Origin: Gammaproteobacteria bacterium
GTDB lineage: Bacteria; Pseudomonadota; Gammaproteobacteria; HK1
Reading direction: 5' to 3'
DNA length: 64,000 bases
NCBI GenBank assembly: GCA_021773795.1
Contig: JAJFJT010000015.1
Coordinates: 1 to 64,000, forward strand
The number at the start of each line of letters is the position of its first letter. Within the stretch, counting starts at the first letter, position 1. The position numbers were made by a program, and so were the translations under genes. Below the pieces are notes generated by a model, which did not search any database, was not told the DNA's origin, and saw only the letters and a program-made list of their open reading frames with translations. Below are positions 6,582 through 56,244 of the stretch, one piece after another.

Positions 6582-7821
6582 AGCGTAGTGCCGTTGCCGG
6601 ATGGGTTCGGGAGGCCCGCCAGGCAGGATAGAAGGTAGCGACAATGGTCATTAGAAAGGCCACCACGGCAATGATGCTTACATCCGCCCAGCGCAGATCC
6701 GAGGGAACTTCACTGATGTAATAGACATCTGCGGCCAAAAATTTGGTCTCAAACAATGATTCGATGGCTGGTACCAGAGTTTCGATATTAAGCGCCAGTG
6801 CTATACCACCTGCGATGCCCAACAGGGTTCCAAAGAGCCCGATCACCGTGCCTTGAACGATAAAGATCCCCATTACTCGCAATGGTGTGAGGCCCAGAGT
6901 ACGCAAGATGGCGATATCCGATTCCTTGTCCACCACCACCATCATCAGGGTGGCGACGATATTGAAGGCGGCCACCGCCACAATAAGGGCGAGAATAATG
7001 AACATCACGGTCTTTTCGGTTTTAAGCGCACGAAAGAAATTCGCGTGCACCTGAGTCCAGTCACTGACCCATACCGCACGGCCCACGTTGCGCCCGAGAT
7101 CCTGGCTCACCTGTGGCGCATCCATCACCTTGTCCACGCGGATGCGCAGACCACTGATATGCTCTCCAAAGCGAAACAACTTGGCCGCATCCTGTAGATG
7201 AACCAGCGCCAGGGCTGAATCGTACTGGGCGTGGCCGACGCGAAAAATTCCCGCCACGGTAAAGCGCTTGAGACGGGGTAAAACCCCTATGGGCGTGACA
7301 TTGGGTTGTGGTGCCAGCGCCGTGAGCTTGTCCCCTACCCGTAGTCCCAGAGTACGAGCGAGATCGGTGCCCACAAGGATCTTAAAGGCGCCAGGCTGGA
7401 GGGCATCTATATTGCCTTCCTCCATAAAAGTCCGGATCTCCGAGACGGCTCCTTCTTGCACCGGCAAGATGCCGCGTAGCAAGGCGCCACGAACATAACG
7501 GTCACGACTAAGCATCACCTCCCCGCGCACATAAGGCGCCACGCCGGTAACCCGCGGATGCTCACCGGCCAGACGGGCCAGCCTGGGCCAGTCCGCTAGC
7601 CGCCCATTAACTCCCGAGATGGTGGCGTGAGAGGCCATTCCAAGGATTCGCTCCCGCAGTTCCTTTTCAAAGCCATTCATCACCGACAGCACCGTAATCA
7701 GCGCGGTCACCCCAAGGGCGATACCCGCCATGGAGCTGAAGCTGATGAAGGAAATAAAGTGATTACGGCGCTTGGCGCGGGTATAGCGCAGGCCGACATA
7801 TGCTTCCAGAGGTCGAAACAT
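6574..7821 (-). CDS. lolC: lipoprotein-releasing ABC transporter permease (LolC/LolE family)
   Basis: 415 aa inner-membrane permease. A short cytoplasmic start ([19 protein letters not shown]) leads to TM1 (about 22-48), a long periplasmic MacB-type domain (about 50-260), and three C-terminal helices, the FtsX-like topology. It pairs with LolD. No second permease (LolE/LolC) is present next to it, so a homodimeric LolFD-type complex is an inference. A near-perfect Shine-Dalgarno AAAGGAGGT precedes the start and sits inside a small inverted repeat, CCAAC...GTTGG (7831-7848). Confidence 0.94.
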
Positions 7822-10616: not shown

Positions 10617-11123
10617 TCAGGATGAGACCTGATTATCCCAATAATCGTCATCTTCCACCCCACCTTCACGGGTCCAGACGAGACGACCGATAATCTTGAA
10701 TTTGGCCACCGACATGACACCACGACTTGCCCGACTGCTTGGGCCATCGCCTTCCAGGGCGTCAAGGATCTCTTCGCGGTCCGCCTCGTAGATCTCAAAG
10801 GGCTCAAACTCTTCATCCATGAGCACCAGCACCACATCATCCCATTGCTGTTGCAGCTTGAGTTGGCCAATACGATAGGCACCGCTCTTTTCATTGAAAA
10901 TCGCCCGCCCCTTGACCTGCACCCGGCGCCCCTCCCGAGCCCCGCGACCGATGGCATCACAACCACCCTCAGGCTGTTTCAATAGCTCGAGATCCAGCAG
11001 TCGCGCAGCGTCATAACGTGCGATCTCACCACTGATAGCCAGTGGCTTGCCGGTTGCCTTACGGTATTCCGAGGCCAAGCGCCGCGTCTCGGACATAAGT
11101 TTATCTATGGAATAAAGGGCCAC
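10617..11123 (-). CDS. uncharacterised conserved protein, possible PD-(D/E)xK-like nuclease fold
   Basis: 168 aa, not recognised with certainty. The first 45 residues are helical (MALYSIDKLMSETRRLASEY, then ISGEIARYDAARLLDL); then comes GGCDAIGRGAREGRRVQVKGRAIF, where Asp56 followed by Gln69-x-Lys71 and an earlier Glu33 resembles the active-site layout of PD-(D/E)xK nucleases. The C-terminal 40 residues are acidic with an aromatic end. It lies 10 bases after ygfX and 23 bases before yoaA, so it is in the same transcript as a repair helicase. The nuclease idea is inference from motif spacing only. Confidence 0.8.
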   Translation of the reverse strand: MALYSIDKLMSETRRLASEYRKATGKPLAISGEIARYDAARLLDLELLKQPEGGCDAIGRGAREGRRVQVKGRAIFNEKSGAYRIGQLKLQQQWDDVVLVLMDEEFEPFEIYEADREEILDALEGDGPSSRASRGVMSVAKFKIIGRLVWTREGGVEDDDYWDNQVSS

Positions 11124-16748: not shown

Positions 16749-17552
16749 CTAGTTGGAAACGACGATGAACATCACCCGCCGATTCTTTTCACGTCCGGCC
16801 CGCGTGTGGTTGCTGGCAATCGGTCGGGTTTCACCCATGCCCGACACACTCATCCGTGAACGCGCGATGCCATTGGCCGCCATGTACTCGCGCACAGCTT
16901 CGGCCCGTTTAAGAGACAAGGTGCGGTTGTACGCATCTTCACCGGTAGCATCGGTGTGGCCAACCACGCGCACGTTGATGTTCGAGTGTTTCTTGAGCAG
17001 GCGAATTGCACTGGCATCCAGCAGAGCCTGAGAGAACCCGACTAACCGAGCGCTGTCAAACTCGAACTCAACCGCCTGTATAAGCAGGGCCTGGCTCACT
17101 TTAGAGCAACCCTTGGCGTCTACCTTGGAGCCAAACGGAGTCTTTGCACACTGGTCCATATTGTCCGCGACACCATCCAGGTCCTTGTCCAGCATGCAAC
17201 CGTACGCGTCTATGCTAGAACCAAACGGGGTATACGCACAGACGTCTTTATTGTCGGCAACACCATCTACATCCTTGTCGAACATACATCCAAATTTATC
17301 TATCTTCGAACCCTGCGGGGTATAGGCACATACGTCCTTACTGTCTGCCACGCCATCACCATCCTTGTCCGGCACACAGCCCCAGTCAGTAACCTTGGCG
17401 CCCTTCGGGCTATAGGCACACTCGTCCTTTGAATTCGGCACGCCATCACCATCATTGTCCGGTGCCGCCGGAGCACCCCCCCCCGAAGTCGCACAAGCAG
17501 ATATAAATAATGGCAGCATCACCACCGCAAAAATATTCAACATCAAACGCAT
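16749..17552 (-). CDS. OmpA-family lipoprotein with four thrombospondin type 3-like repeats
   Basis: 267 aa. The signal peptide ends in the lipobox FISAC with Cys20, so it is an outer-membrane lipoprotein candidate. Residues 30-149 are four exact 30-residue units of the form DKDGDGVADSKD-C-AYTPQGSKIDKFG-C, with Asp-rich calcium-binding-type loops and two Cys per unit. Residues 155-267 are an OmpA/MotB peptidoglycan-binding domain (VVGHTDATG, LSLKRAEAVREYM, REKNRRV). It is therefore predicted to tie the outer membrane to peptidoglycan through a rigid calcium-dependent spacer. It is a tandem paralogue of the next gene upstream. Confidence 0.9.
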   Translation of the reverse strand: MRLMLNIFAVVMLPLFISACATSGGGAPAAPDNDGDGVPNSKDECAYSPKGAKVTDWGCVPDKDGDGVADSKDVCAYTPQGSKIDKFGCMFDKDVDGVADNKDVCAYTPFGSSIDAYGCMLDKDLDGVADNMDQCAKTPFGSKVDAKGCSKVSQALLIQAVEFEFDSARLVGFSQALLDASAIRLLKKHSNINVRVVGHTDATGEDAYNRTLSLKRAEAVREYMAANGIARSRMSVSGMGETRPIASNHTRAGREKNRRVMFIVVSN

Positions 17553-38825: not shown

Positions 38826-39335
38826 CTAGAAGAGATCTCCGCCCCCCAGTTCCGTATCACTCAGCAATTTCTCTAAATTAATCAGGGTAAAGAGATCATC
38901 ATCCTCGCTGTATATGCCCTGAATGTAACGATTATGCTCATTATTTCCCACCTTGGGTACGCTCTCGATCCGCGACTGGGGCACCTCGATCACTTGTGCA
39001 ACGCTATCTACCAGGATGCCAACCACCTGTCCCGATACTTCTACGATAATAATGCGGCTGGCATCATCAGCTTCTGTGGTCATCAGGCTAAACAGGCAAC
39101 GGGTATCAACAACGGTCACCACGTTGCCACGCAGGTTGATGATGCCAATAACGTAGTGTGGCGCACCGGGAACCGGGGTGATTTCGCTCAGGCGCAAAAC
39201 TTCCTGCACCTGCATGACATCAATGCCATAACGTTCACCCGCCAACACAAAGGTAACCCATTGAGAAAGAGCATCCTGGGCAGATGCATCAGAATCCCCA
39301 GTTTTATATTTCGCTTCGTTCGGTTGATTTTGCAT
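38826..39335 (-). CDS. cheW: chemotaxis coupling protein CheW
   Basis: 169 aa, a single CheW domain (about 25-160) after a 24-residue polar tail. Conserved stretches are WVTFVLAGERYGIDVMQVQEVLR, PGAPHYVIGIINLRGNVVTVVD and GILVDSVAQVIEV. It bridges receptors and CheA in arrays. In related polar flagellates the order is parA-parP-cheW; here parP is missing between parA and cheW. A sigma-54 promoter at 39377-39392 precedes it. Confidence 0.96.
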   Translation of the reverse strand: MQNQPNEAKYKTGDSDASAQDALSQWVTFVLAGERYGIDVMQVQEVLRLSEITPVPGAPHYVIGIINLRGNVVTVVDTRCLFSLMTTEADDASRIIIVEVSGQVVGILVDSVAQVIEVPQSRIESVPKVGNNEHNRYIQGIYSEDDDLFTLINLEKLLSDTELGGGDLF

Positions 39336-39376
39336 ACGTCAATATTCCGTCACTAGCGGGGTCTAAAGAGTAGACA

Positions 39377-39392
39377 TGCAGTGTTCATGCCA
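39377..39392 (-). promoter_or_regulatory. sigma-54 (-24/-12) promoter of cheW
   Basis: The minus strand reads TGGCATGAACACTGCA, which matches consensus TGGCACG-N4-TTGCA at 14 of the specified positions except one C to T and one T to C, with the required GG-N10-GC spacing. The predicted start is about 30 bases before the cheW ATG. It would allow cheW and the two downstream genes to be transcribed apart from parA. Confidence 0.65.
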
Positions 39393-39425
39393 CATTTTTC
39401 ATGCATATGAGCTAACAAGGCCATC

Positions 39426-40220
39426 TCAACCCGCTTTTTTGTAGTTACAGCCATAGCGCCGGGATAGCTCTTCAAGCAATGCTCTATAGGCCAGCACGCC
39501 ACGACTGTTAGGGGTCATCTCCGGCAATGGCCTTCCGGCCTGACTGGCATCCCGGAATTTCGTATCGATGGGGATAACCCCGTTCCAAAGCCTACCAGCA
39601 TACTGCTGGCGCAAAATTTCAAGACTCTCGCAACCCGCGCGGGTACGCCGATCGTGCAGTGTCGGAACAATAATATGCTCCAGGGGTGCCTGGCGAGATC
39701 GCCCTACCATCTCCAGGGTACGCAGCATCCGTTCCAGCCCCTTGAGCGCCAAATACTCTGTCTGCACCGGAATAATCAGTGATGAACAAGCCGCCAGCGC
39801 ATTAAGCATCAGAATTCCGAAAACGGGTGGACAATCGACAAATACGTGCTGAAATTGTTTTTGGCCAAGCTCCAATGCGCGCCGCAGCACAAGGCCCATC
39901 CCCTCCTGTTCCGAGAGTTGCCGATCAAGGGTTACGAGGGCCGTCGAAGCTGGCAATAACGAAATACCCTTTGCCTTCGTGGGATGAATAACATTGGTGA
40001 GTGAACGTTCCTTCCCCGCGACGCGGTGCTGAAAAAGAGTATAAACACTGCCCTCTACATCTTCTGGCACGCACCCGAAATAGCTGCTAAGTGAGCCGTG
40101 AGGATCCAGATCTACAACCAACACAGACTCACCCTGAAGACCAAGCAAACTGGCAAGGGTCACTGTAGTGGTGGTTTTACCGACGCCACCTTTCTGATTG
40201 GCTACCGCCCATATGTGCAT
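39426..40220 (-). CDS. parC: ParA-family ATPase of the chemotaxis operon (ParC type)
   Basis: 264 aa. Deviant Walker A NQKGGVGKTTTTVTL at residues 8-22, the DLDPHGSLSSYFG loop, Walker B HVFVDCPPVFG and switch region PVQTEYLALKGL are intact. Such ParA proteins position chemotaxis arrays at the cell pole and guide their inheritance (known for Vibrio ParC). It is two bases after motD and 91 bases before cheW. No parB or centromere site is nearby, which argues against plasmid or chromosome partition. Confidence 0.85.
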   Translation of the reverse strand: MHIWAVANQKGGVGKTTTTVTLASLLGLQGESVLVVDLDPHGSLSSYFGCVPEDVEGSVYTLFQHRVAGKERSLTNVIHPTKAKGISLLPASTALVTLDRQLSEQEGMGLVLRRALELGQKQFQHVFVDCPPVFGILMLNALAACSSLIIPVQTEYLALKGLERMLRTLEMVGRSRQAPLEHIIVPTLHDRRTRAGCESLEILRQQYAGRLWNGVIPIDTKFRDASQAGRPLPEMTPNSRGVLAYRALLEELSRRYGCNYKKAG

Positions 40221-43032: not shown

Positions 43033-45090
43033 TTAATGGCCGCCGGCATAACTATCCAAAAGACCTGGCACATCCAGGATGAGTGCAATGCGCCCGTCCC
43101 CGGTAATGGTTGCGCCCGCTAAACCCTTTGTGCCCTGGAGCAGAGCCCCCAGTGGCTTGATCACGACCTCTTGCTGGCCCAACAAGTTATCCACCACCAG
43201 GCAGATCATCCTGTTTCCCACATGCACTACCAATACATGCCCATGCCGGGATTCGGCATCTGCGGCCGGATTAAGCCATTCCTTCAAATAAAAAAGCGGC
43301 AGCGGTGCGCCGCGTACCATCACCATGGCGTGCCCGTCCACACGATTCATTTTTGCCTGCTCCAGGTCGAATATCTCTTTTACATTGACCAATGGCAAAG
43401 CATAAATCTGCTTACCCAGCACCACCATCAAGGTTGGCACAATAGCCAGGGTGAGCGGTACTTTTATGACGATAGTGGAGCCTTTTCCCAAAGCGGATTG
43501 AACCTCAACACTACCATTGAGTTGGGTAATGCCGGTTTTAACGACGTCCATACCAACACCACGACCAGATACATCAGATATTTCAGTTTTGGTAGAAAAT
43601 CCGGCAGCAAAGATCAAGTTATAACACTCATGATCCGTGAGACGTGCCGCCACCTCCTCATCCATCAGCCCCTTCTCCACGGCCTTGCCACGAAGTACCT
43701 CTGCATCCATACCCTTGCCATCATCGCTCACGGTCAAAAGGATGTGATCACCCTCCTGCGCCGCAGCCAGGGTTACAGTGCCCTTGCGTGGCTTGCCTGT
43801 TGCCTCCCGTTCCTCAGGCATTTCAACGCCATGATCCACTGAGTTACGTACCAGATGGACCATTGGATCAGCGAGGGCCTCCACCAAATTCTTGTCAAGA
43901 TCCGTATCCTCCCCCACCATAACCAGATCAATATCCTTACCGAGGCTTCGCGCCAGATCCCTCACCACGCGTGGAAAGCGACCAAACACCTTCTTGATGG
44001 GCTGCATCCGGGTCTTCATTACAGCTGACTGAAGATCACCGGTTACCAGGTCCAGGCTACCAATGGCCTCGGCTGCCCGCTCGTTGGACAGGGTACTTTC
44101 CAGAGTGGTCAGGCGGTTGCGTACCAACACCAGCTCTCCCACCATATTCATGATTTTGTCCAACACGCCGGTATCTACTCGAACCGTCGTTTCACCCTTG
44201 GGGACCCGCAGAGGTTTTGCAGAAGCTTTGGCCTGTTTGGCCACCGGGGCCGGGGGCTTCGGTACGGCGGGCGGGGGTGCCGCCGGCGCCACTTTGGGTA
44301 TTGGCTTCCCTGCTACCGCCGCGAGTTCTGCTTTTCTGGCGGGCTTTCCCCCGGCACCATGCAGCTCATCCAGCAGGGACTCGAATTCATCATCGGTGAT
44401 CTCATCTGCCGAAGCCCCTCCATCAGCCGCTGGCTGCTGTTTTCTGCCGCTCCCGTGCAGCTCATCCAGCAAGGATTCAAATTCATCATCGGTAATTTCA
44501 TCTGAGGAAACTGTCGCCGCGTCTGCACTTGCCGTAGCCTCTGCCGCTGGTTCAGCGAACTCACTACCGTCGTGCATTTGTGACAATAGCGAATCAAAAG
44601 CCGCTTCACGGACCGCTTTTTCATCACCCTCATCGGCCGCCTCATCCGCACCCACTGGCTCCAGCGCACTCTCTTCCGCTAGTTCTGGCTCGGCCACATC
44701 CTCGCCACGTTCCACGGCCTCCAGCTGGGCAATCAGCTCCTGCTCTGCAGATGGGGGTTCCTCACCTTCCCGCAGTTGTTCAAACATGGCGTTGACCACG
44801 TCCAGAACCTGCAACATCAGATCCATTAGCTCAGGGTCAACCTGTCGCTCACCCTGGCGTAAAAGATTGAAAATATCCTCGGCACGGTGGCAAACGGTCA
44901 CCATACCGTCGAGGGCAAGAAATCCGGCCCCACCCTTTATGGTGTGAAAACCACGAAATATTGCGTTCAGGAGCTCCGTATCCTCCGGCTGGGTCTCCAG
45001 ATCAACCAGTTGCTCACCGAGCAAATCCAGGATCTCGCCACCCTCTACCAGAAAGTCCTGGACAATTTCGTCGCTTAGGTCAATTGCCAT
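43033..45090 (-). CDS. cheA: chemotaxis histidine kinase CheA with a repeat-bearing linker
   Basis: 685 aa. The HPt domain (1-105) has phosphoacceptor His49 in RGFHTIKGGAG. No P2 (CheY-binding) domain is apparent between 130 and 300; the linker is acidic and Ala/Pro-rich with two identical 17-residue units starting DEITDDEFESLL (197-213 and 229-245) and one degenerate copy (164-174, FDSLLSQMHDG). The dimerisation (305-365), kinase (HLVRNSVDHG, DDGKGMD, SGRGVGMD) and CheW-like domains (548-680) are intact. It phosphorylates CheY and CheB. Confidence 0.96.
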   Translation of the reverse strand: MAIDLSDEIVQDFLVEGGEILDLLGEQLVDLETQPEDTELLNAIFRGFHTIKGGAGFLALDGMVTVCHRAEDIFNLLRQGERQVDPELMDLMLQVLDVVNAMFEQLREGEEPPSAEQELIAQLEAVERGEDVAEPELAEESALEPVGADEAADEGDEKAVREAAFDSLLSQMHDGSEFAEPAAEATASADAATVSSDEITDDEFESLLDELHGSGRKQQPAADGGASADEITDDEFESLLDELHGAGGKPARKAELAAVAGKPIPKVAPAAPPPAVPKPPAPVAKQAKASAKPLRVPKGETTVRVDTGVLDKIMNMVGELVLVRNRLTTLESTLSNERAAEAIGSLDLVTGDLQSAVMKTRMQPIKKVFGRFPRVVRDLARSLGKDIDLVMVGEDTDLDKNLVEALADPMVHLVRNSVDHGVEMPEEREATGKPRKGTVTLAAAQEGDHILLTVSDDGKGMDAEVLRGKAVEKGLMDEEVAARLTDHECYNLIFAAGFSTKTEISDVSGRGVGMDVVKTGITQLNGSVEVQSALGKGSTIVIKVPLTLAIVPTLMVVLGKQIYALPLVNVKEIFDLEQAKMNRVDGHAMVMVRGAPLPLFYLKEWLNPAADAESRHGHVLVVHVGNRMICLVVDNLLGQQEVVIKPLGALLQGTKGLAGATITGDGRIALILDVPGLLDSYAGGH

Positions 45091-45118: not shown

Positions 45119-45868
45119 TTAAAAGCCCAGACTCAAAAGCAAATCATCCACATCATCCTGTCCTGAAACCACGTCAGCATCATCGTCGGGATTTATCCGT
45201 GGCCCTTTGGCATCCAGGCCTACATTTGGAGCGTTTATCGCAGCTGGTGCTTTGGCACCACCTCGCACCCGGATCATGTTGACAAGATTCTCCTCCACCT
45301 CCTGGACCAGCTGAATGACCTGACGCACAACCTGTCCGGTAAGGTCCTGAAAATCCTGGGCCATCACCACTTGCGACAAGCAATTATGGACCTGACCACA
45401 GTCCGCCTGGACCCGATCCAGATAAACGAGCAGTTCACCCAGGAGCACACGAAATTCACCCGCAACCATTTCCTTGCGTTTAAGGCGCAGCCAGCGCGGT
45501 TTCATTTTTTCCGCAGTAGAACCCAGGCCTTTGACCAAAGGTGCGGCCTCATCCATCGCATTGAGCGTTCTATGGGCGGCTTCTTCGGTCTTGGTAATCA
45601 CATAATTAAGCCGCTCCTTGGCATCGGGTATCTGTATCTCCGTCACGTCTGCAAGATTTGCATCCAGCTCAAAACTGCGCAGTGCATCATGCAGTTGGCG
45701 GGTCATCGCTCCCATATCGCTAAACAATTGCGATTCACGTATGCGGGTAAGCTCATCAAATCCTTCGCGCGCCTTATCGTCCTCACCCGCCTCAATATCC
45801 GAGATCACATGCTTAAGGGATGGCAATAAGTCCTGCATCTCTCCAGCAGTCGAAATCGGCGCCCCCAT
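45119..45868 (-). CDS. cheZ: protein phosphatase CheZ
   Basis: 249 aa, longer than E. coli CheZ (214). It contains the long helical hairpin with the catalytic segment VVMAQDFQDLTGQVVRQVI, and a C-terminal CheY-docking helix DDVDDLLLSLGF preceded by a flexible acidic linker. It dephosphorylates CheY. The start overlaps the cheY stop by one base (TAATG). Confidence 0.95.
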   Translation of the reverse strand: MGAPISTAGEMQDLLPSLKHVISDIEAGEDDKAREGFDELTRIRESQLFSDMGAMTRQLHDALRSFELDANLADVTEIQIPDAKERLNYVITKTEEAAHRTLNAMDEAAPLVKGLGSTAEKMKPRWLRLKRKEMVAGEFRVLLGELLVYLDRVQADCGQVHNCLSQVVMAQDFQDLTGQVVRQVIQLVQEVEENLVNMIRVRGGAKAPAAINAPNVGLDAKGPRINPDDDADVVSGQDDVDDLLLSLGF

Positions 45869-46248
45869 TAAGCGGTTCCTTCAAGACGTTCAAAGATTTT
45901 TTCCAGCTTCTCCTTGAGGGTTTGGGCGGTAAAGGGTTTGACGATATAACCGTTCACCCCGGCCTGCGCCGCTTCGATAATCTGTGTTTTCTTGGCCTCG
46001 GCAGTCACCAATAGCACCGGCATGGCTGCCAGACGCTCATCCGCACGGACCGCTTTTAGCAGGTCAATTCCCTGCATAATCGGCATATTCCAGTCTGTCA
46101 CCAGGAAGTCAAAATCACCATTCTGGAGCATCGGCAAAGCGGTACTTCCATCATCAGCCTCACTGGTATTGTTAAAACCCAGATTCCGCAACAGGTTTTT
46201 GATAATTCGCCGCATAGTAGAAAAATCATCCACCACCAGGATTTTCAT
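45868..46248 (-). CDS. cheY: chemotaxis response regulator CheY
   Basis: 126 aa from the ATG at 46248; a longer frame to 46302 adds residues not in the family. A single receiver domain with acidic pair Asp7-Asp8, phosphoacceptor Asp52 in [10 protein letters not shown], the VTAEAKK Thr and the KPF Lys. It binds FliM to change motor rotation. It follows fliA by 54 bases. Confidence 0.96.
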
Positions 46249-46302
46249 GTTTTTATCCACGCCATTCTCCAACCCGACAACCCGAGATAACCAGACTGCC
46301 AC

Positions 46303-54644: not shown

Positions 54645-55235
54645 CTAACTGAGTTTCTTCACCCGATCCTGCGGGCTAATCACATCGGTCATGCGGATGC
54701 CGAACTTTTCGTTGACTACCACCACTTCGCCATGGGCCACGAGGGTTCCATTGGCATACACATCCAGCGGTTCGCCGGCCAGGCGTTCCAGTTCCACTAC
54801 CGAGCCCTGATTAAGCTGCAGCAAATTGCGGATACTAATGGAGGTACGCCCCAGTTCCATGGACAGGGTCACCGGGATATCCAGAATGGTCTCCAGGTCC
54901 GGCGATACTCCACCGAGGTTTCCCGGCTCCGTCAGGTTTGGTGTAGGTGCCGGGCTATAAGCTGGCCCCGCCGTGGCCGCGTTCACCTTATCCTTGGCAT
55001 CCGCCTGTTCGGCCAGAGCATCGCCCCAGCCATCTTCGGCACCGGCATCGCTACTATCACCATCGGCCTTGGCATCCGCCTGCTCGGCCAAAGCCTCATC
55101 CCAATCATCACCTGCGGCTGCATCATCGGCCTTGTCAGTCGCCTCGGACTCGGCCAATGCCTCGCCCCAGTCATCGCCTGTAGCCGCATCACCAGCCTCG
55201 CCATTAGCCTCATCAGACGTTGTTTCTTCAGCCAT
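54645..55235 (-). CDS. fliN: flagellar motor switch protein FliN with a tripled N-terminal docking motif
   Basis: 196 aa, longer than E. coli FliN (137). The SpoA C-ring domain is at 112-192 (LDIPVTLSMELGRTSISIRNLLQLNQGSVVELE). The N-terminal 85 residues are acidic and Ala-rich and carry three copies of the motif GDDWGEALAE, at about 20-29, 42-52 and 68-77. FliN proteins normally have one such motif near the N-terminus, in the part that contacts FliH. It overlaps fliM by eight bases. Confidence 0.95.
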   Translation of the reverse strand: MAEETTSDEANGEAGDAATGDDWGEALAESEATDKADDAAAGDDWDEALAEQADAKADGDSSDAGAEDGWGDALAEQADAKDKVNAATAGPAYSPAPTPNLTEPGNLGGVSPDLETILDIPVTLSMELGRTSISIRNLLQLNQGSVVELERLAGEPLDVYANGTLVAHGEVVVVNEKFGIRMTDVISPQDRVKKLS

Positions 55236-56244
55236 TAGTATTCTCCCCCGGGGACGTTGTACGCCCCCCCTTTCTACGGATATGTTCTACTACCTGGAGG
55301 GCGACACTGCCCCCGGAAGCCCCAGCCTGAGCACGAAACATCGGTACATTTTCTGCCTTTGCCAGCACCGTATCTGGGATCTCCACAGGAATGATGTCAC
55401 CCTTCTTGAGTTTGGCCAGCTGCCGCAAAGAGATCGTCGTCTCGGTCAAGGTGCTCACCAGTTCCACCTTGGCGGCCTCGATTTCTTCACGCAGTGCCAA
55501 GCCCCAGCGATCGTCATGGTCTGAGCGATCACTTTGCATTCCTGTATCCAGAAGATCCCGAATGGGTTCGATCATGGCGTAGGGCATGGCCACATGAAAA
55601 TCCCCACCACCCCCCTCCAGATCTACGTGAAATACGGTGATAACCACCACTTCGCTCGGGGTGACAATATTGGCAAAATGCGGATTAACTTCGGAACCCA
55701 CGTGTTCAAAATTCAGATCCATGACTGGAGTCCACGCCTCTTTCAGATCCTTGAAGATAAAGCCGAGCACCATTTCAATAATGCGAGTCTCTGTGGGGGT
55801 AAAATCCCGGCCCTCAATTTTTGCGTGGAAACGACCGTCACCACCAAAATAATTATCGACGATGGAAAATACGAGCTTGGGGTCAAAGGTAAAAAGAGCC
55901 GTTCCCCGGAGTGGCGAGATTTTTACCAGGTTCATACTGGCCGGCATAAATAGACCATGCACATATTCGGCAAACTTGAGCATTTGTACCGTGCCCACCG
56001 ATATTTCCGGAGAGCGGCGCAGCAGATTGAACAGGCTGAGGCGCAAATGGCGGGCAAAGCGCTCATTAATCATCTCGAGGGTCGGTAAACGGCCCCGCAC
56101 GATGCGGTCCTGGGTATTAAAGTCATAGTCAGCAGCTATGCCAGGCTCTAAATCCGGCCTGCCCTCGGTTTCTACATCGCCGGCATCCACGCCGTGGAGC
56201 AGCGCATCAATTTCATCCTGAGAAAGTATGTCTTGAGCGGGCAT
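55228..56244 (-). CDS. fliM: flagellar motor switch protein FliM
   Basis: 338 aa. The N-terminal CheY-binding peptide is LSQDEIDALLHGVD (residues 7-20). The middle domain, with GRLPTLEMINERFARHLRLSLFNLLRR and FGGDGRFHAKIEGRDFTPTE, forms the C-ring wall, and the C-terminal SpoA domain binds FliN. It is five bases after fliL. Confidence 0.97.
   Translation of the reverse strand: MPAQDILSQDEIDALLHGVDAGDVETEGRPDLEPGIAADYDFNTQDRIVRGRLPTLEMINERFARHLRLSLFNLLRRSPEISVGTVQMLKFAEYVHGLFMPASMNLVKISPLRGTALFTFDPKLVFSIVDNYFGGDGRFHAKIEGRDFTPTETRIIEMVLGFIFKDLKEAWTPVMDLNFEHVGSEVNPHFANIVTPSEVVVITVFHVDLEGGGGDFHVAMPYAMIEPIRDLLDTGMQSDRSDHDDRWGLALREEIEAAKVELVSTLTETTISLRQLAKLKKGDIIPVEIPDTVLAKAENVPMFRAQAGASGGSVALQVVEHIRRKGGRTTSPGENTNG

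Follow-up and report, generated by a model that had tools for sequence, protein, structure and literature searches.

A tandem array of short predicted helices in the P2 position of a gammaproteobacterial polar-flagellum CheA resembles the FliM peptide and may dock CheY

The P2 domain of CheA, which lies between P1 and P3 and binds CheY, is dispensable even in E. coli and is missing from more than half of CheA homologues, and this loss is already published (PMC10542144). The low sensitivity of the Pfam P2 models is known (PMC10542144), which makes the absence of a Pfam match by itself weak evidence for such a loss; descriptions of the CheA of V. cholerae (PMC7534058) and of P. putida (PMC11978298) continue to mark a P2. 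A stretch of Vibrio CheA before P3 has been described as the localization and inheritance domain (LID); it is bound by ParP-AIF and is said to occur only together with ParC and ParP (PMC5706961; PMC7534058). FliM binds CheY at alpha4-beta5-alpha5 (PMC11528121; for V. cholerae CheY3, PMC3774744), and three residues facing P2 differ between the CheY of the class considered here and the one that works with F7-class CheA (PMC7184735).

We analysed a window of 64,000 nucleotides (positions 1 to 64,000 of contig JAJFJT010000015.1, assembly GCA_021773795.1, from a Gammaproteobacteria bacterium; genome G000 below) that carries the gene order fliA-cheY-cheZ-cheA-cheB-motAB-parC-(parP)-cheW, also found in relatives. 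By this order its CheA fits the F6 class, the gammaproteobacterial polar-flagellum system. The parts of the CheA gene are as follows.

43033..45090, minus strand: CheA, 685 aa, with P1, a linker carrying the repeats and P3-P4-P5, without P2 (ORF and Pfam)
44710..45090, minus strand: P1 / HPt domain plus a fifth helix, residues 1-127 (Pfam Hpt; five high-pLDDT AlphaFold2 helices)
44191..44709, minus strand: Ala/Pro/Glu-rich flexible linker at the place of P2, residues 128-300 (pLDDT mostly 41-70, no fold; spacers 45% identical to congener G001)
44566..44610, minus strand: unit 1, degenerate, REAAFDSLLSQMHDG, residues 161-175 (predicted helix 157-173; same 15 residues in G001; a full unit stands in this column in relatives)
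44452..44502, minus strand: unit 2, DEITDDEFESLLDELHG, residues 197-213 (predicted helix 201-211; profile E=5.8e-10)
44356..44406, minus strand: unit 3, DEITDDEFESLLDELHG, residues 229-245 (predicted helix 233-243; profile E=3.8e-9)

The array (residues 161-245) follows Hpt, which ends at residue 108 (P1 at 127), and precedes H-kinase_dim, which starts at 301. The original prediction, made from the sequence of this stretch, had read two identical 17-residue units at 197-213 and 229-245, and both were found there with the same 17-mer; their coding stretches (51 nt each) differ at seven nucleotides, all silent, and a DNA repeat, D1, covers the pair with 81% identity over 69 nt. The degenerate third unit that it proposed is likewise present and kept in the congener, but the array ends at 44610 and not at 44601. 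Neither the repeat nor the FliM peptide brought up anything useful in a search of PDB sequences.

The same prediction held that no P2 lies between the HPt and dimerisation domains. Pfam matches in the CheA comprise Hpt (8-108), H-kinase_dim (301-360), HATPase_c (409-547) and CheW (554-680), and, sub-threshold noise aside, no P2 or CheY-binding family matched even at E<=1, leaving the linker without a recognisable P2. Across 65 related P1-P3 linkers, a P2 or CheY-binding family was absent among the Pfam families listed, and the sub-threshold resemblances were to SHOCT, GemA and noise. This silence is weak evidence, because paralogous CheAs, meant as positive controls, gave no match to the Pfam P2 model either. 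We also modelled residues 1-318 with AlphaFold2 on an alignment of 54 sequences. Helices of P1 were predicted up to residue 127 with a pLDDT of about 96-98; past that point the linker fell to pLDDT 41-70, with lone helices at 157-173, 201-211 and 233-243, a short one at 310-314, and no compact globular fold. The three main predicted linker helices coincide with the three repeat units, and the model thus depicts a CheA that lacks P2 and whose units stand as lone helices along a flexible linker.

The repeats are not confined to this genome but class-wide, a point absent from the original prediction. Among 97 related CheAs, collected from eighty named loci plus further genomes, the linkers share a design of Ala/Pro/Glu-rich spacers and the motif [DE]-I-[ST]-[DE]-x-E-F-[DE]-x-L-L-D-x-L-H-G, usually in three copies (range 1-8; none detected in one sequence), with the E and F positions practically invariant over 288 units. 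This recurrence at the matching place in related sequences puts the repeats far above chance. Of 369 gammaproteobacterial genomes, 141 carry the motif, and in a set of 398 genomes of the phylum all the matches listed fell in Gammaproteobacteria; named hosts include Pseudomonas, Stutzerimonas, Marinobacter, Shewanella, Photobacterium, Pseudoalteromonas, Methylophaga and Methylomonas. The largest array we saw, eight units together with a long PAKPAAA tandem repeat, is in the linker of a CheA of about 1073 codons (L010; G049:C33:9056-12253). Two polar chemotaxis loci, L187 (G189) and L194 (G038), have no cheZ match and a CheA that still carries one repeat unit.

The units are under purifying selection and the spacers are not, independently of ParP. 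Between G000 and G001, both of which lack ParP, identity is 93% in P1, 93% in P3-P5 and 92% in the three units, compared with 45% in the spacers, and codon changes in the units are mostly silent (22 silent versus 4 amino-acid changes). Since unit identity is this high while the spacers drift, constraint on the units must be strong even without ParP.

The units had further been likened to the CheY-binding peptides of FliM and CheZ, which this window also encodes.

56197..56226, minus strand: FliM N-terminal CheY-docking core LSQDEIDALL, FliM residues 7-16 (FliM CDS 55228-56244; rank 3/490 among window ORFs)
45122..45172, minus strand: CheZ C-terminal CheY-docking tail, ending SGQDDVDDLLLSLGF, the weaker comparison (CheZ CDS 45119-45868; hhalign score 10.2)
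45868..46254, minus strand: CheY, predicted docking partner (Response_reg; closest solved structure is the CheY homolog 3to5)

FliM starts MPAQDILSQDEIDALLHG and CheZ ends DDVDDLLLSLGF, both as originally written. With a repeat matrix built from the units of relatives, this genus left out, the FliM N-terminus ranked third of 490 window ORFs, and permuting the matrix columns gave p=0.003 for FliM and p=0.02 for CheZ. The best non-CheA match to the matrix in the window, EIYEADREEILDALEGD, lies in an unrelated 168-aa ORF (10617-11123, minus strand). Profile-profile alignment (hhalign) of the repeats with FliM N-termini was ungapped and in the expected register (score 17.1, P 7e-5), the core pattern being shared except that an invariant Phe replaces the FliM Ile. 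No control window from other locus proteins reached the FliM score (0/485), compared with 11/485 for the CheZ score of 10.2. The likeness to FliM therefore stood, that to CheZ was marginal, and part of the former comes from the helix N-capping box, which FliM and the repeats both carry and which is generic to short helices: 16 of 929 N-capped 14-mers from elsewhere score as high as the FliM of the window. A genome-wide search with the repeat profile at E<=10 returned CheA only, with neither FliM nor CheZ surfacing.

The best single hypothesis, to which we give a probability of about 45%, is that the array docks CheY in place of P2; it is the best-supported reading, drawn from likeness in sequence, from position and from conservation. 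On this reading, short helical docking motifs, tandemly arrayed in a disordered linker, would have replaced P2 in the gammaproteobacterial polar-flagellum CheA. Their core, ITDDEFExLL, would most likely form an amphipathic helix with an N-cap, to which CheY would bind by its FliM-binding face. CheY would thereby become more concentrated in the vicinity of P1, with several copies compensating for weak single sites. In relatives that have ParP, its CheW-like domain may also use the region, perhaps through the D-x-L-H-G tail, as a LID. We infer CheY binding, its site, a role in phosphotransfer and this dual use from the absence of P2, the three lone modelled helices, the presence of the motif in 141/369 genomes, its persistence without ParP and the similarity to FliM, together with the known FliM-CheY face (PMC11528121, PMC3774744) and the three P2-facing differences in CheY (PMC7184735).

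Conservation within the motif points the same way. In ParP-less genomes the FliM-shared columns stay near 100% conserved while the tail relaxes (H from 0.80 to 0.50, D from 0.97 to 0.75, L from 0.91 to 0.78), a comparison in which the units were found by the matrix and which carries some ascertainment bias, equal in both groups. Two ParP-less genomes retain the core alone, as EITDDEFEALLNQRD in G211 and DITDEEFELLLQMRE in G315. Their loci (L178 and L179, respectively) have cheW directly after cheA, without motAB, parC or parP, and their units join the FliM-like core to another tail (NQRD, QMRE).

Several observations weigh against CheY docking: the invariant Phe in place of the FliM Ile, the share of the likeness owed to N-capping (16/929) and the return of CheA only from the profile search. 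FliM-type peptides prefer phosphorylated CheY, and a dock serving phosphotransfer should prefer unphosphorylated CheY, which also counts against this reading. Nor is a replacement for P2 required, because P2 is dispensable even in E. coli (PMC10542144).

A function that the original prediction did not mention has already been claimed for this part of CheA, namely ParP binding by the LID (PMC5706961; PMC7534058). The repeats could thus be the ParP-binding LID and nothing else, holding the CheW-like AIF of ParP to CheA and the pole, and would persist in our genome as a leftover or as a binder of a CheW paralogue. We compared position and co-occurrence. The array lies between the P1/P2 place and P3, and in a Photobacterium relative (L095) the interval before P3 consists of three repeats and Pro-rich spacers, nothing else; from position, LID and repeats probably coincide. 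Across the 369 genomes, 115 have both ParP and the repeats, 26 the repeats without ParP by profile and 5 ParP without the repeats, so that 115 of 120 ParP genomes carry the repeats (Fisher p=1.5e-62), and genomes with ParP conserve the D-x-L-H-G tail more strongly. ParP and the repeats share an ancestor, however, and the association is partly phylogenetic.

Against ParP as the whole explanation stands its absence from this genome, as originally predicted. A ParP profile drawn from 23 relatives and run against whole genomes matched CheW and nothing else in G000 and in G001, found nothing in G002 and gave no ParP in G055 (the genome of locus L035), and the site that holds parP in most relatives spans only 88-90 nt here.

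39336..39425, minus strand: interval between parC (39426-40220) and cheW (38826-39335), the parP site in relatives, with no room for parP here (synteny and ParP profile)

As the 26 genomes ParP-less by profile are too generous a count, only those with no room for parP by synteny were counted. At least 15 repeat-bearing genomes from 10 families qualify (G000, G001, G006, G017, G026, G038, G055, G076, G173, G175, G189, G191, G211, G212 and G315). G232, G332, G178 and G167 were dropped for a divergent ParP-like ORF between parC and cheW, and some other profile-negative genomes end at contig edges and were left out of the count. Several ParP-less loci also lack parC (G017, G038, G189, G191, G211, G315 and G055). 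Because at least 15 ParP-less genomes keep the repeats, and because, in a genus without ParP, identity is 92% in the units but 45% in the spacers, ParP cannot be the sole purpose of the repeats; conservation on a par with the catalytic domains is unlike a leftover, and we consider a LID-only role unlikely. Should the repeats be the LID, the reported rule that the LID occurs only with ParC and ParP (PMC7534058) fails.

A second alternative, which we judge rather improbable, is that the partner of the array is some other constant component of the polar flagellar and chemotaxis locus (ParC directly, MotCD, FlhF/FlhG or CheW), serving localisation or array packing and not CheY recruitment. It draws on congener G002, where the array is an intact 99-aa ORF between fliA and motA (7179-7478, minus strand, of L197, G002:C14:62000-81900), its 99 codons comprising three units with a stop directly after the last. 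The fliA-motA stretch of G002 contains no cheY, cheZ, cheB or other part of cheA, cheW was not found locally, and the genome has no close CheY (best match 33%), while fliA, flhA, flhB, fliR, flhF, flhG, motA, motB and parC are intact. Relative to G000, the units of G002 show 11 amino-acid versus 18 silent changes and the spacers 21 versus 11. An array kept after CheY has gone favours the polar localisation partner that the original prediction had offered as its alternative, or else decay: either it serves something other than CheY, or the chemotaxis system is decaying and the ORF is a recent leftover of it. Unless it is such a leftover, it argues against CheY as sole partner. In the same locus, fliM (17395-16400, minus strand) has one in-frame TAA at residue 53, about position 17240, with nine other checked genes intact; the ORF may be a recent remnant. 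The seven loci without parC also speak against such a partner, as do the repeats of G211, which occur without motAB between cheA and cheW.

It is very improbable that the helices have no specific partner and act as short N-capped P1-P3 spacers aiding solubility or self-association, since their low-complexity acidic character and the sub-threshold resemblance of 59/65 linkers to the short helical SHOCT domain (best E 2.6e-11) are set against a practically invariant E and F, drifting spacers and strong purifying selection confined to the motif.

CheY docking by the array could be one stage of a longer history, which we put forward tentatively: P2 was replaced across Gammaproteobacteria by FliM-like CheY-docking motifs, ParP later used them as a pole tether, and one lineage lost the kinase but kept the array as a small protein of its own. 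The linker type occurs in model clades (Pseudomonas, Shewanella and Photobacterium), and the array bears on how P2-less CheAs, more than half of homologues (PMC10542144), recruit CheY. With a defined motif and copy number, independence from ParP and natural ParP-less genomes, the question can be tested with short peptides.

Compared with known systems, the array shares with the P2 domain its position between P1 and P3 and the same proposed job; P2 is a globular domain, whereas here isolated helices are predicted in a disordered linker that has no Pfam match to P2. With the LID of Vibrio it shares the protein and the interval before P3, but the LID is characterised by ParP binding and co-occurrence with ParC and ParP, and ParP is absent from this genome. 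The tail of CheZ has in common with the units the pattern phi-[DE]-x-L-L-x-x-L-G and differs in its marginal score, its C-terminal place and a Val at the hydrophobic position. With the FliM peptide the units share an ungapped core, [IL]-[ST]-x-x-E-phi-[DE]-x-L-L, and a helix on a flexible tether; the FliM peptide is single and stands at the extreme N-terminus of a switch protein, whereas the units are internal to CheA and repeated, carry Phe for Ile and end in D-x-L-H-G.
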